A stretch of 64,000 nt of DNA from Salarchaeum japonicum (GTDB taxonomy: Archaea; Halobacteriota; Halobacteria; Halobacteriales; Halobacteriaceae). The stretch spans positions 625,564-689,563 of the forward strand of contig NZ_CP085324.1 in NCBI RefSeq assembly GCF_020614395.1, written 5' to 3'. The translations under genes were made by a program, and so were the position numbers. This document shows positions 58,276 to 64,000 of this stretch, in pieces. Numbering within the stretch: the stretch's first letter is position 1; every line of letters begins with the position of its first letter. The notes beneath the pieces are model-generated. The model did not search any database. It was not told the DNA's origin and saw only the letters and a program-made list of their open reading frames with translations.

Positions 58276-60657
58276 CTAATCGTTTAGGTCGGCGTGGTCG
58301 CCGAACGCCGCCGCGAACACCGTGCCGAGCGCCTTCCGGAGGTGCTGGTGGAACGTCGGCGCGCTCACGCCCATCGCCTCCGCGACCTCCTCGCCCGTGT
58401 GCTCGCGCGGCCACGAGAAGAACCCGTGCTCGTACGCCGTCCTGAGCGCCGTGCGCTGTTTCTCCGTCAACCCCTCCACGAGCACCGCCGGCTGGGACGC
58501 CCGCTGGGAGCGCCGCACCAACTCGATACCCGGCAGTCGCTCCTCGCACGCCGCGACGAACTCGCGCACGGAGCGCGTCCGCGGCACCGTCACCGACACC
58601 TCGACCTCCCGCGGCGTCGCCGTCAACGACTGCACGGACGCGCCGTGCGCCGCCAACACGTCCACCGCCGGGAACTCGGACACCACGAGCCCGACGAGCG
58701 AGCGGTCGGCGTCCGAGTCGAACACGTCCACGGACTCCACGGACACGAGCGCGTCCGCCGCCGCCGACACCGCCGCCGGGTCGGCGTCCGCGACCGCGAC
58801 GTACACCAGCCACGACCCGTCGTCCTTCGACACCACCTCCTCCAGGTCGAACGTCGCGCCCGTCCGCCGCGCCATCGCCGACACCGGCCCCGTCGCGTCC
58901 GGCACCCGGAACGTCACCTCCACGTCCCCGCCCGTCACGAGAGCCTCCTTGCGTTCCGCCGCGTTCACCGCGCTCGCCACCGTCGCCGCGAGCTCGCTCA
59001 GTATCTCGCGCTCCTCCCGGCCGAACTGGTTCGCGCGCCGGCCGTACACGACGAGCACGCCGTACGACCCGCCGTCGAAGGACAATGGGAACGCCGCCGC
59101 CGACCCCGCGCCCGCCGCGAGCGCGCGCCGCCGCCACCCGCCGCCCGCCGCCGACACCAGGTCGGACACGACCACGGGTTCGTCGCGCTCTACCGCCCGC
59201 CACGCCGGCGACGCCGTCGCGTCCTCCACCGCCAGCGCGTCCAGAATCGACTCGCCAGCGCCCGCCCACGCCCGCGGCGACACCTCGCCGTCATCCAGCG
59301 TCCCCGTCCACGCGAACACGTACTCGTCGTCCGCCGCGAGCGACTCGCACACCGACCGCTCAACGTCCTCCCGGCTCGACGCCCCCAGCAGTCCCGCCTG
59401 CGTCCGCCGCACCAGCGTGTTCGTCCGATTCACCTCCTCTAAGCGCTCCGTCTTCGCCGCCAGCTCGCGCTCCTGCTCCCGCAGTGCGGCCTCCCGGTCG
59501 TGCCGGTCGAGCGCCGCCGCCGTGTTCGCCGCCAACACCTCCACCACCGTCACGTCCACGTCGTCGAACCCGCCCGACTCCGACCCCGCGACGAGCACGC
59601 CGTGCGACCCCACGGACACCACCAGCGCCGCCAGCTCCCCGAACACGGCCGCCGACTCCACCGTCCGCGTCTCCTCCGCGACGAACGCATCCCACACCGC
59701 CGACCCGTCCCCCAGCACGGGCAACTCCCCCGGCGTCCCGTTCGCCGTCGCCGCCGCGACCAGCGCGCGCTCGTCCGCGTCCCACCGGTAGAACGCCGTC
59801 CGCGCCAACCCCAGCAGGCCGTCCGCCGCACCGACCGCGTACTCGAACACGTCCTCGGGCGTCTCCGCCGTCACCAACGCCCGCGTCGTCTCGTGTAGCG
59901 TCGTCACCGCGCGCTCGCGCGCCACCCGCTCGCTCACGTCCCGCCCCACACCCGCGACGTGCGTCACCCGGCCGTCGTCGTCCGTAATCCGGGAGAACGT
60001 GAACTCGAACGGCACCGCGTCCTCGCCCACCGCCGCGTCCACGCGCGCACTCCCCTCCGCGACCGCCGCCTCGAACGCCGCCGCCACCGCCTCCCGGTCG
60101 TCCGACGCGACGACCGACTCCGGCTCCACCTCGCTCGGGTCTCTCCCCCCCATCACGTCCTCCGCCCGCGAGTTCCAGTGCGTCACCTCCCCCGACACGT
60201 CCGCCACGAAGAACACGTCCCGCACCGCCTCCACCGCGTCCTCCACGAACGCCCGACTCGCCGCCAACTCGCGCTCCGTCTCGTACGCCTCCGCCGCGTT
60301 CACCACCGTATTCACGAGGATATCGAACTGCCCCCGCCCCGGGCGCTTCTGCACGTACTCCGTCGCCCCCAGACTGATCGCCTCGCTCGCCACGTCCTCA
60401 CTCCCCGCCCCCGTCAACAACACGAACGGCAACTCCGGACGCTCCGCCCGCACCGCCTTCAGGAGTTCGAGGCCGTCCATCGCTGGCATCTCGTAATCGC
60501 TCACCACGCACGAAAACCCCTCCCCCAGCCGGTCGAGCGCAGCGCTCGCGCTCGTCTCCGCCACCACGTCCACGCCGCGCCGCTCCAGGAACTCCACGGT
60601 CACCGACAGGAACGCCTCGTCGTCGTCCACGACGAGCACCCGCAAACCGTCGCTCAT
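58276..60657 (-). CDS. Bacterio-opsin-activator-type multidomain regulator
   Basis: 793 aa. Domains in order: receiver (1-120, Asp in SCVVSDYEMPAMDGLELL), PAS (about 130-255), GAF (about 265-400), GAF (about 425-580), BAT domain (about 590-720) and C-terminal HTH_10 (about 735-790, EGLTEKQRTALRTAYEHGFF). Such regulators couple light, oxygen or redox sensing to transcription; Bat of Halobacterium activates bop. The target genes here are unknown. A GGTTTAC element on the minus strand (60681-60687) lies 24-30 nt upstream. Confidence 0.93.
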   Translation of the reverse strand: MSDGLRVLVVDDDEAFLSVTVEFLERRGVDVVAETSASAALDRLGEGFSCVVSDYEMPAMDGLELLKAVRAERPELPFVLLTGAGSEDVASEAISLGATEYVQKRPGRGQFDILVNTVVNAAEAYETERELAASRAFVEDAVEAVRDVFFVADVSGEVTHWNSRAEDVMGGRDPSEVEPESVVASDDREAVAAAFEAAVAEGSARVDAAVGEDAVPFEFTFSRITDDDGRVTHVAGVGRDVSERVARERAVTTLHETTRALVTAETPEDVFEYAVGAADGLLGLARTAFYRWDADERALVAAATANGTPGELPVLGDGSAVWDAFVAEETRTVESAAVFGELAALVVSVGSHGVLVAGSESGGFDDVDVTVVEVLAANTAAALDRHDREAALREQERELAAKTERLEEVNRTNTLVRRTQAGLLGASSREDVERSVCESLAADDEYVFAWTGTLDDGEVSPRAWAGAGESILDALAVEDATASPAWRAVERDEPVVVSDLVSAAGGGWRRRALAAGAGSAAAFPLSFDGGSYGVLVVYGRRANQFGREEREILSELAATVASAVNAAERKEALVTGGDVEVTFRVPDATGPVSAMARRTGATFDLEEVVSKDDGSWLVYVAVADADPAAVSAAADALVSVESVDVFDSDADRSLVGLVVSEFPAVDVLAAHGASVQSLTATPREVEVSVTVPRTRSVREFVAACEERLPGIELVRRSQRASQPAVLVEGLTEKQRTALRTAYEHGFFSWPREHTGEEVAEAMGVSAPTFHQHLRKALGTVFAAAFGDHADLND

Positions 60658-60727: not shown

Positions 60728-60797
60728 CCACCGGACGGCGTCGCCACTACGCCGAGTGAAAACAAAGAAGAAATGCTGCGGGTGTGACCGCTATCGG
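60728..60797. repeat. About 70-bp direct repeat, copy 1 (after the PIN gene)
   Basis: It matches 61601-61671 over its whole length with only a handful of substitutions and short indels (shared core GGCGTCGCCACTACGCCGAG then TGAAAACAAAG). It lies downstream of the PIN gene and contains the minus-strand T-rich run that could end its transcript. The two copies bracket the HTH/PIN module. Confidence 0.85.
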
Positions 60798-60831
60798 TAC
60801 TCAACACGGACCTATTTCGACCTATCCATCG

Positions 60832-61260
60832 CTACGCGTACGGATTGTCCGCAGTCGATAGCCGTGTAATCGTGTCGAACCGGTCGAAATCGTCGTCGAA
60901 ACTGTAGACGTACTCGATTCCGACTCGGTTCATGTACGCCGCCGTTACAGCGTCCGCGAGTTCGAGATTTCGCTCTCGAATGAATATCACCTGTCCGTCC
61001 GCCTGATCCGATTCGGTCGGATGAACGAGTTCGATGTTCTTGCTGTCTTCGAGGTACTGGAACGTTTCAACCGCTCTCCCCCAGGTCGTGTTCTTCTGAA
61101 TCGACGCCAGTGCCTCCATCAGATTCTGTGAAAGCACGTGAACGAGCGGGAGGTCTCCCTGGTCGACTGCGTCCATACTCTCGCTCGCTCGGTCGTGGAA
61201 CGCGTCACGGCGGCTTCGGTCCGCGAAAAGAACGTTCGCGTCGACGACAGCCCGAACCAT
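60832..61260 (-). CDS. PIN-domain protein (VapC-like toxin candidate)
   Basis: 142 aa. The acidic PIN quartet appears in order: VVDANVLFAD (Asp7), QNLMEALASI (Glu), LELADAVTAAYM (Asp) and SFDDDFDRFD (Asp). PIN proteins are ribonucleases, and VapC-type members cleave tRNA or rRNA. The start codon follows the stop of the HTH gene with no gap, a toxin-antitoxin-like arrangement, but the upstream partner is an HTH protein instead of a canonical VapB. Codon use is less GC-biased than the surrounding genes, and direct repeats bracket the pair. Confidence 0.82.
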   Translation of the reverse strand: MVRAVVDANVLFADRSRRDAFHDRASESMDAVDQGDLPLVHVLSQNLMEALASIQKNTTWGRAVETFQYLEDSKNIELVHPTESDQADGQVIFIRERNLELADAVTAAYMNRVGIEYVYSFDDDFDRFDTITRLSTADNPYA

Positions 61261-61563
61261 TCAGTTCCGCGTGTGCGATGCTTCCGTCTCTTCGAGCGCG
61301 TTCGTCTCCCCCATGTCGATAGGGTCGGGGCGCTCGGCGTCCCCACGCGGCACCCACCAGAGCACGATACCGCTCGTCTTCCGCCGCCGCACCAGCCCAC
61401 GCTCGTGAAGCGCGTTCAGGCGCGCCCGGGCGTCGTCCGTCGAGCAGCCGAGCACGTTCGAGATATCGCTCGTCGTCACCACCGGCGGCTCCATCGTCTC
61501 AACGACTTCGAGCACGTCCTCAGCGCTCACCGTCGTCGTCGGTTCCGAGTCGGTTCCACTCAT
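61261..61563 (-). CDS. Winged-helix protein, putative antitoxin of the PIN protein
   Basis: 100 aa winged-helix domain (VLEVVETMEPPVVTTSDISN to GLVRRRKTSGIVLWWVPRGD) with a Glu/Ala-rich acidic tail. The ATG ending at 61563 is chosen; an upstream TTG-type start would add 11 residues. A CTTTTACG element (61586-61593 in plus coordinates) lies 23-30 nt upstream on this strand. It probably represses its own promoter and neutralises the PIN protein, as in PIN/HTH pairs, but no experimental equivalent is known to me. Confidence 0.75.
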   Translation of the reverse strand: MSGTDSEPTTTVSAEDVLEVVETMEPPVVTTSDISNVLGCSTDDARARLNALHERGLVRRRKTSGIVLWWVPRGDAERPDPIDMGETNALEETEASHTRN

Positions 61564-61585
61564 ACCCGAGCGTACACCGGTATCG

Positions 61586-61593
61586 CGTAAAAG
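61586..61593 (-). promoter_or_regulatory. TATA-like element of the HTH/PIN operon
   Basis: On the minus strand CTTTTACG, 23-30 nt before the ATG ending at 61563. Confidence 0.45.
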
Positions 61594-61600
61594 CATTCGC

Positions 61601-61671
61601 CCACCGACGGCGTCGCCACTACGCCGAGTGAAAACAAAGGGAAAGAATGCTGCGAGTGTGACCGCTACCGG
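61601..61671. repeat. About 70-bp direct repeat, copy 2 (after the S-layer gene)
   Basis: Near-identical to 60728-60797, 873 bp away. This copy lies just downstream of the S-layer gene stop and overlaps its candidate terminator. See copy 1. Confidence 0.85.
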
Positions 61672-61677
61672 CGGTCA
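61628..61677 (-). terminator. Terminator-like hairpin of the S-layer gene
   Basis: TGACCGC (61659-61665) and GCGGTCA (61671-61677) form a 7-bp stem around CGGTA on the minus strand. It is followed, in the direction of transcription, by the T-rich run CTTTCCCTTTGTTTT. The copy downstream of the PIN gene retains the T run but has a shorter stem. Confidence 0.55.
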
Positions 61678-61686
61678 GTCGTTATT

Positions 61687-64000
61687 TTAGTTGTCGCGGC
61701 GGAGCGCGAGGAGCGCAGCGCCGAGGACCGCGACGAGCGCGAGACCGACGCCGAAGCCGGGCGTGCTACCGGACGAGCCTTCCTCCGTCGTCGTCGTGGA
61801 GGCAGCCGTCGTCGTGGTAGTCGTCGACGTGGTGGACGTCGTGGACGTCGTGGTAGTCGTCGACGTGGTGGACGTCGTGGACGTCGTGGACGTCGTCGAC
61901 GTGCCCGTGGACTCGACGACGTTACCGTCAGCCGTCGTGTCCGTTTCGGTGTTCGAGACAGTGAACATGTCGCCGGCACCGATTCCCTCGGGCGACGTCA
62001 TGTCGAACGTGCCGGACCAGCTACCGTCAGCCTGGACCGTCACCTTCGTGCTCTTCACGAATGCGGGCTGGGTGTCCTCCGTGGACTGAAGGCGCACGGT
62101 GAATTCCGTACCGGGCGCGTAGGTCGACATACCGGAGATGGTCTGCCCCGTCGCGGCGGTCACGTTGACCGGGTCGGACGAGTAGGAGACCTCACCAGCG
62201 ACGGTGTCGAAGGACGCCGTCACGGACTGGTGGTCTTCGTCGCTCGTGCTGCCGAGAAGACGGTCGTCAGCGACGGTGAACGTCGCGTTGAACGAGTCGT
62301 CAGAGTCGACAGATGCGGAGTCACCGCCGAGGCCGCGCTCCCAGTCAGCCGAGCTCGGCTGGTAGGCGACGTAGTAGGTGTCGTTAGCGGCGTCGGAGAT
62401 GATGCGGAAGTCCGTGCTGCTCGTGTTGAGGACCTTCGCTTCACGGTTGGACTCGGGGTTCGTCTGCTCAACGCTGAGCGTGACGTTCCCGTTGTCGAGA
62501 GCGTCGGCGAGGTTGTCGTTAGCTGCAACGAGACCCTCGAGGCCGGTCGCATCAACCTGGTGGACGACGTAGTCGCCCGTGGCGATGCTGTCATCCTGCG
62601 TGAGGGAACCTTCCTCGATGAGGCTCGCAACGTCACTGTAGTCCGCGTCTGCCGGGATGGTAGGCGCGGTCCACAGGTTCATGCCGTTCGTGGCGCGCTC
62701 CGTAATGAAGAGCGTGCCAATCGAGTCGGCGGAGTCGACAGTCGTGCTGTAGTCGTCGCTGTTGTCACCAACCGTCGCGTACAGGCTGTAGTCGCCCGTG
62801 TCGAGGAGGTTGGAGAGGTCGCTCTGCGTACCGTAATCGATGTCGTCGCCTTCACTCACGGACACCGGGGCACCGAATGCCGATTCGTTACCCGCGGTGT
62901 ACGTGTTGAACTTGATCGTGACCTGATCGTCACCGTTGCCGTCAGTCACGGTCATGTTCGCCTGGTAGCCGGACTGCGCGTCGTTACCGATAACGACGGT
63001 CGCAGTGTCCTGCGCACCAGTGATGTCAACGGTGATTTCGCCGACGTTGCCCTGAATCACGTCGTAGCTACCGGAGCCAGCGAAGGCGACTTCGCCAGCT
63101 GCGGCTTCCGTGACGGTGATGGAGTCGGACGCGGTCGCGTCGGTGTCAGCCACGTCGAACGTGAAGTTGTACGTGGCGGCCGTCGCGTCAGTGAAGTTCA
63201 GTTCCGTGGTGCTGTCAGCGGGAAGACCGGAGAGGACGACGGTGTCGTTCGTATCGTCGTCGTCCATGTCTTCAACGCTGACATCCTCGTAGTTGTCGTT
63301 GAAGATCTCCTGAACCGTGCTGGCTGCGACGTCACCGTCCCACTGGACGTAGACATCGTAGCCGCCACGGTTGGAGTCGAATTCGAGGTCAGCAGTTCCA
63401 GCAGCGTTCGACACGGAGTCCGCGGAGAGGGTTGCGTCGAACGTCTGGACTGCTATCTCGAAGGACGCGTTATCGGTGCTCGATGCTGCACCGTTGGAGA
63501 CGCCGTCGTCACCGATGGTGAGCTTGGTCTTCGAGTCGTCGACGATGTAGTAGTCACCGTCGTAGCCAGACGTGCTGAGAACCGCGGAGCCGTTCTCATC
63601 GAGACTGAACTCGGTGACAAGGCCGCCGTCCTCAGCGAACCGAATCTGGTACGTGTCTCCCTCACTGTCGCTACCGTCCTGGGCCTGGAAGAACAGGTCC
63701 TGGCCCTGCCAGAACGTGCCGTTCGTGCTCACGTTCGCGTCAGAGCCGGAACGGTCAGAAGCGCCAGCTCCGATAGTGAGGTCAGCCGAAACCTGGGAAC
63801 CCGAGGACTGTGGGTTAATGTCGACTGTACCCGTGTATACCCCGTCCGAGGACGGATTTGTGAAGTCAGTTAGGACGACTTTGAACTGCTCGCCGTCCTG
63901 AACCTGGGTACTGTCAAATTCGACTTTAATAGTTTCTCCATTGTTTGTCGGGGACTGCGCAGTCGCATTACTGACTTGGGTACCGTTGTAATAGACGGTA
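61687..64000 (-). CDS. csg: S-layer glycoprotein with PGF-CTERM signal (5' end outside window)
   Basis: At least 771 residues; the reading frame is open to position 64000, so an in-frame GTG at 63732 is internal. The C-terminus has a Thr/Ser-rich stalk (TTSTTSTTT blocks) and then the PGF-CTERM element PGFGVGLALVAVLGAALLAL followed by RRDN, the archaeosortase (ArtA) substrate for lipid attachment. The rest is Asp-rich with immunoglobulin-like strand repeats and many N-X-S/T sequons such as NGTF and NVTA, as in haloarchaeal S-layer glycoproteins. The stalk DNA (61800-61905) is a 9-bp-based repeat of GTCGTGGAC-type units. Confidence 0.92.
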   Translation of the reverse strand, partial: TVYYNGTQVSNATAQSPTNNGETIKVEFDSTQVQDGEQFKVVLTDFTNPSSDGVYTGTVDINPQSSGSQVSADLTIGAGASDRSGSDANVSTNGTFWQGQDLFFQAQDGSDSEGDTYQIRFAEDGGLVTEFSLDENGSAVLSTSGYDGDYYIVDDSKTKLTIGDDGVSNGAASSTDNASFEIAVQTFDATLSADSVSNAAGTADLEFDSNRGGYDVYVQWDGDVAASTVQEIFNDNYEDVSVEDMDDDDTNDTVVLSGLPADSTTELNFTDATAATYNFTFDVADTDATASDSITVTEAAAGEVAFAGSGSYDVIQGNVGEITVDITGAQDTATVVIGNDAQSGYQANMTVTDGNGDDQVTIKFNTYTAGNESAFGAPVSVSEGDDIDYGTQSDLSNLLDTGDYSLYATVGDNSDDYSTTVDSADSIGTLFITERATNGMNLWTAPTIPADADYSDVASLIEEGSLTQDDSIATGDYVVHQVDATGLEGLVAANDNLADALDNGNVTLSVEQTNPESNREAKVLNTSSTDFRIISDAANDTYYVAYQPSSADWERGLGGDSASVDSDDSFNATFTVADDRLLGSTSDEDHQSVTASFDTVAGEVSYSSDPVNVTAATGQTISGMSTYAPGTEFTVRLQSTEDTQPAFVKSTKVTVQADGSWSGTFDMTSPEGIGAGDMFTVSNTETDTTADGNVVESTGTSTTSTTSTTSTTSTTTTTSTTSTTSTTTTTTAASTTTTEEGSSGSTPGFGVGLALVAVLGAALLALRRDN
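61800..61905. repeat. Short tandem repeat coding the Thr/Ser stalk
   Basis: About 100 bp of degenerate 9-bp units (variants of GTGGACGTC) encode the Thr-Ser-Thr stalk of the S-layer protein. Such tracts slip during replication, so stalk length may vary between isolates. Confidence 0.75.

Follow-up and report, generated by a model that had tools for sequence, protein, structure and literature searches.

The window analysed here, a stretch of 64,000 nucleotides from the genome of Salarchaeum japonicum, ends within an S-layer glycoprotein gene, the 3' part of which matched NCBIfam NF041335 (3.1e-94, below the curated cut-off, the gene being truncated by the window) and TIGR04126. Directly behind this presumably highly expressed gene, with its probable terminator alone in between, lie two adjacent minus-strand ORFs for an HTH protein and a PIN-domain protein, and the pair is bracketed by two direct repeats (Table 1). 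The HTH gene most likely starts with the ATG at 61563, an upstream ATG at 61596 being less likely. The TTTTA element in front of it is identical in the sister species.

Table 1. Features behind the S-layer gene, in coordinates of the window
Feature	Position	Strand	Basis or remark
S-layer glycoprotein gene, 3' part in window	61687..63999	-	PGF-CTERM signal at its end
S-layer transcript-end stem TGACCGC..GCGGTCA, then T-rich tract	61659..61677	-	family-wide conservation with covariation
Proximal repeat copy	61601..61671	-	within the S-layer 3' flank
TTTTA, candidate TATA element	61588..61592	-	about 27 nt upstream of the antitoxin start (ATG, leaderless); read from sequence, putative function
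Gene of the putative hybrid antitoxin (HTH protein), 100 aa	61261..61563	-	stop codon abuts the PIN start
Winged-helix DNA-binding domain, antitoxin residues 14-70	61354..61524	-	alignment and model
Tail RPDPIDMGETNALEE, antitoxin residues 78-92	61288..61332	-	homologous to the tail that ends the AbrB-type VapB partners of this PIN family
Gene of the PIN-domain (VapC-type) putative toxin, 142 aa	60832..61260	-	Pfam PF01850, model, nearest fold, alignment
Distal repeat copy	60728..60797	-	behind the PIN gene; duplicated S-layer 3' flank in which the 5' side of the stem is truncated

The two repeat copies have the same orientation and are identical in 66 of 73 aligned columns, or 97% of the ungapped positions, with a perfect core of 34 bp (60734-60767 and 61606-61639). 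When one copy was searched against all 2.34 Mb of the genome, two places were returned (E = 2.4e-31 and 1.4e-20); the next best match had an E-value of 0.14, and no third copy was found below 0.1. An earlier note on this DNA had described direct repeats of about 70 bp around the HTH/PIN pair, and they are real, lie where it placed them and match far beyond chance. Its further statement, that each copy follows the end of a minus-strand gene and contains the transcript end, holds for the position, as the S-layer and PIN stop codons lie just 5' of the respective copies, but only partly for the transcript ends: the S-layer stem runs past the boundary at 61671 that had been given for the proximal copy, and the distal copy carries the inner part of this stem only. 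The possibility that the repeat is a dispersed genome element was rejected, as there are just two genomic copies and a 16-mer of its second half is merely sporadic elsewhere. In another genus (G007), a T-rich tract followed by the repeat's second half, GCGTAGTGGCGACGCCGTCGG, was observed between two unrelated genes (L013:1500-1535).

The source of the repeat became apparent from the S-layer loci of the family. In most other genera, a conserved stem, typically CGACTGACCGGCGTTACCGGTCAC, and a T-rich tract are situated behind the S-layer genes. Across 13 S-layer flanks of the family the 7-bp stem is kept in 97.8% of cells, two-sided changes occur at three of the seven pairs, and the covariation score was reached by none of 500 shuffles; the case for the stem rests on this covariation because RNA folding of the repeats was no better than that of shuffles. 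One other genus (G015) also has the second half of the repeat, as CGTCGCGTAGTCGCGACGCCGT, about 70 nt past the S-layer stop codon. No recognisable PIN or HTH gene was detected by tblastn at 17 S-layer loci of the family (1.5 kb downstream of each). Because the stem and T-rich tract, together with the second element in G015, follow module-free S-layer genes once, the repeat is the transcript-end region of the S-layer gene, ancestrally its 3' flank, and was duplicated to give the copy behind the PIN gene. The earlier note had suggested that the module entered behind the S-layer gene and duplicated its 3' flank, and had proposed a comparison with relatives lacking the module. This comparison supports the suggestion, since the flank occurs once and without the HTH/PIN pair in other genera of the family, and paired repeats without the module were not found among the relatives compared. 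Entry may have taken place by a single crossover of a circle carrying the flank, or by duplication at insertion. The distal copy may be a weak terminator because its stem is truncated.

The PIN protein matches Pfam PF01850 with 43.4 bits (cut-off 23.6), and its structural model has a pLDDT of 96.5. In an alignment of 28 sequences, the acidic residues E49, D103, and D122 are invariant and D7 is nearly so. The closest solved structure, both by profile (E = 4.7e-10) and by fold (TM 0.80), is the toxin VapC20 of M. tuberculosis (5wzf, 5wz4); the identity is 21-22%, and the sarcin-ricin loop, the target of VapC20, is not to be assumed as the target of the PIN protein. NCBIfam Mtu_PIN_fam (TIGR00028) gave 24.5 bits, below its curated cut-off of 73.6, and PADLOC gave no match for the PIN protein and only weak matches for the HTH protein. 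At E 1e-8, 208 of 392 haloarchaeal genomes contain relatives of the PIN protein, the distribution of which is patchy; relatives also occur on many haloarchaeal plasmids. Viral contigs contained a single relative of the PIN protein, accompanied by an AbrB partner, and no relative of the winged helix.

The gene upstream of the PIN gene was examined for 103 PIN relatives. It is of the AbrB type in 91 by an automatic rule and in about 100 after reading; the eleven partners left unclassified by the rule proved nearly all to be AbrB-type, with one having lost the AbrB domain and one cut short. Thus, the partner in this haloarchaeal VapC family is almost always an AbrB-type VapB. A winged-helix partner was found only once among the 103, in a genome of another family (G259). 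On a Haloarcula marismortui plasmid (NC_006393.1), an AbrB/MazE/SpoVT-type VapB and a PIN VapC share with the window pair the PIN family (about 43% identity), the gene order, and the tail motif, whereas the DNA-binding domain of the window antitoxin is a winged helix and not AbrB.

The HTH protein has the C-terminal tail of an AbrB-type VapB, but no match to the AbrB/SpoVT DNA-binding domain was obtained for it, and a winged helix, which scored below the cut-off of each single Pfam family, occupies the place of that domain. The tail PDPIDMGETNALEE matches the tail DPVDMGETDAVEV of the AbrB partners, a likeness that none of 100,000 shuffles equalled. On a profile built from 22 distinct tails of AbrB antitoxins (e.g., DFEPVDAGETNAVEA), the tail segment RPDPIDMGETNALEE scored 27.4 bits, against 16.0 for the best among 100,000 shuffles of the same tail and at most 0.75 for nine other winged-helix antitoxins. 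The G259 antitoxin scored 35.3, and an orphan antitoxin in G061 scored 19.6. The tail was modeled with low confidence, as expected if it would fold on the toxin. From these comparisons, we read the HTH protein as a hybrid antitoxin, with a new DNA-reading head and an old toxin-binding tail. The pair has the make-up of a VapBC system, namely a PIN toxin with acidic active-site residues and, directly upstream on the same strand, a small antitoxin gene whose product combines a DNA-binding domain with a tail. Its family, its fold, the order of its genes, and the antitoxin tail held in common thus lend good support to the proposal that it is a toxin-antitoxin module.

The winged helix itself is akin to winged helices that are encoded upstream of other PIN classes and carry other tails. 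Haloarchaeal antitoxins such as those at L050, L053, and L063 have the same head (40-56% identity) and a PIN gene directly downstream, but differ from the window antitoxin in the PIN class and in the tail (e.g., PNPVDPDDPIF...LSEQVDELLYG). With other tails again, the same head also precedes genes of two further types, one RelE-like and one HicB-like (L255 in G057 and L266 in G397). A scan of named genomes with the antitoxin returned just one weak match, in Streptomyces. The layout of the window antitoxin is common to one further pair (G259), one orphan (G061), and one plasmid remnant. In G259 (L142), tandem VapC genes of the same family have one winged-helix and one AbrB-type antitoxin, and a transposase-like ORF adjoins them. 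In G061 (L143), the winged-helix antitoxin has a related tail, HLEPVEGPKTNAVEL, and is followed by a small non-PIN ORF. In Halarchaeum DNA (L247:4001-4150 and L260:869-1031), a decayed winged-helix antitoxin retains the same linker and a GETxA tail; this relative, which lies in G009 and on plasmid pCBA1220-02, is frameshifted and has no PIN gene. In the best PIN tree, the window and G259 toxins stand apart, and a single clade was not rejected by the AU test (p 0.39); judging from these sequences, the head may have been swapped once or more than once.

Within the genus, the comparison consists of one sister species (G001), in which the module is situated at the same place with both repeat copies present. 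The identity between the two species is 98.4% for the PIN gene and 98.3% for the HTH gene, with third-codon differences of 2.5 and 4.0%, whereas the handful of neighboring stretches compared show 68-88% identity and differ at 13.6-43% of third positions. Because the module is so much more alike than its neighbors, it has, on the evidence of these identities, passed between the two species, or been converted, after their split. The left half of the repeat tracks position, with ACCGATAG and CACACCCG in both distal copies, and the right half tracks species, with CTCGGCG in both copies of the window genome and CCCGCG in both copies of G001. As the copies within the window genome are 97% alike (ungapped) and the orthologous copies between species 85 and 91%, the two copies have evidently exchanged sequence after the duplication. 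In the PIN gene of G001, the loss of 4 bp from a CTCG run shifts the frame after about residue 24, and the antitoxin is intact and 99% identical, so the toxin frame appears to have been lost before the antitoxin. The toxin frames of the two species differ at 61178-61190 by one 4-bp unit of this short run, a possible slippage site. A BAT-type response regulator gene (58276-60657) adjoins the module on its other side, and its counterpart in G001 (L010, L108, L124) is broken: it lacks the stretch matching 60567-60657, start codon included, and its frame is interrupted. The regulator was considered as a marker of the empty site and rejected, because outside Salarchaeum it does not lie beside the S-layer gene.

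Taken together, these findings make it probable that a type II toxin-antitoxin operon (VapBC) with a hybrid antitoxin was inserted at the end of the S-layer gene and left a copy of the flank on each side. Entry of the operon into the intergenic end would have placed the transcript-end region on both sides of it. The PIN protein would be a nuclease toxin, and the antitoxin tail would block its active site, as the tails of AbrB-type VapB proteins are thought to bind and block this toxin family. The head would be of the haloarchaeal kind that also serves other toxin-antitoxin pairs with other tails. With its own putative promoter, the operon would probably repress itself through binding of the winged helix to 61564-61600, and the adjacency of the genes would keep the ratio of toxin to antitoxin. 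Replacement of the head with retention of the tail would leave the toxin specificity unchanged and alter transcriptional control. The proximal repeat would end the S-layer transcript, and the distal repeat would probably end that of the toxin.

The repeats could alternatively be attachment sites at which a site-specific mobile element, the module, is excised and inserted. Exact repeats around the unit, the sequence exchange between the copies, the movement or conversion between species, and the decayed relative on a plasmid all fit this explanation. However, two small genes and no integrase or transposase lie between the repeats, the genome has no further copy of the repeat, no empty site was seen in the window genome or in G001, and homologous recombination explains the same facts, which leaves a mobile element of this kind unlikely. 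It is also conceivable that the two genes encode no toxin-antitoxin pair but an ordinary regulator (the HTH protein) and a housekeeping nuclease (the PIN protein), in that PIN domains have other known roles and the toxicity of this one is predicted. Against this, the supposed regulator bears the tail of the VapB partners of the very same PIN family, the two genes are adjacent, their distribution is patchy, and G001 lost the toxin frame before the antitoxin; we regard it as quite improbable. An idea of the earlier note, that the module could protect the S-layer locus against loss by way of addiction, agrees with its position beside the S-layer gene in both Salarchaeum species. It fares badly elsewhere, because in G001 the toxin is frameshifted and yet the S-layer gene and the antitoxin persist, because the 17 S-layer loci from other genera of the family have no recognisable module, and because toxins of this family are found at many unrelated sites on chromosomes, on plasmids, and in viral DNA; a stabilizing role is very improbable. 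Although a stem and T-rich tract recur behind many haloarchaeal S-layer genes, the view that the two repeats are unrelated terminators that merely resemble each other is in practice refuted by how long the match is: 34 bases are identical, and the 97% identity extends over about 70 bp, far past the stem, in a genome without a third copy.

The preferred reading, an inserted VapBC operon with a hybrid antitoxin, can be set beside known systems. VapBC modules are well known, as is the mixing of toxin families with antitoxin families, and PIN-associated antitoxins, including a winged HTH fused to COG2442, have been described (Makarova et al., 2009; PMC2701414). Those antitoxins show a similar modular mixing of DNA-binding domains with PIN toxins, winged helices among them. 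There, however, families enter new pairings or a known antitoxin domain gains a winged helix, whereas in the window the tail of the usual partner is kept and the head differs. In a limited search of the open-licence literature, no paper was found that describes a haloarchaeal antitoxin combining a winged helix with an AbrB-VapB tail.

The flanks provide a clear case of a toxin-antitoxin module that entered a terminator and of duplicated flanks that later exchanged sequence. The module also resembles a natural head-swap experiment, in which the toxin family and the putative neutralizing tail are the same and the DNA-binding domain is different. It thereby offers a direct test of whether the tail alone decides which toxin is blocked and the head only which promoter is controlled, in which case unannotated winged-helix antitoxins could be matched to their toxins by their tails. 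More speculatively, and at rather long odds, the haloarchaeal winged-helix head may be an interchangeable part that serves many toxin-antitoxin pairs with toxin-specific tails, so that a known VapC lineage has been placed under new control, possibly more than once, and read-through from the S-layer gene could set the supply of antitoxin.
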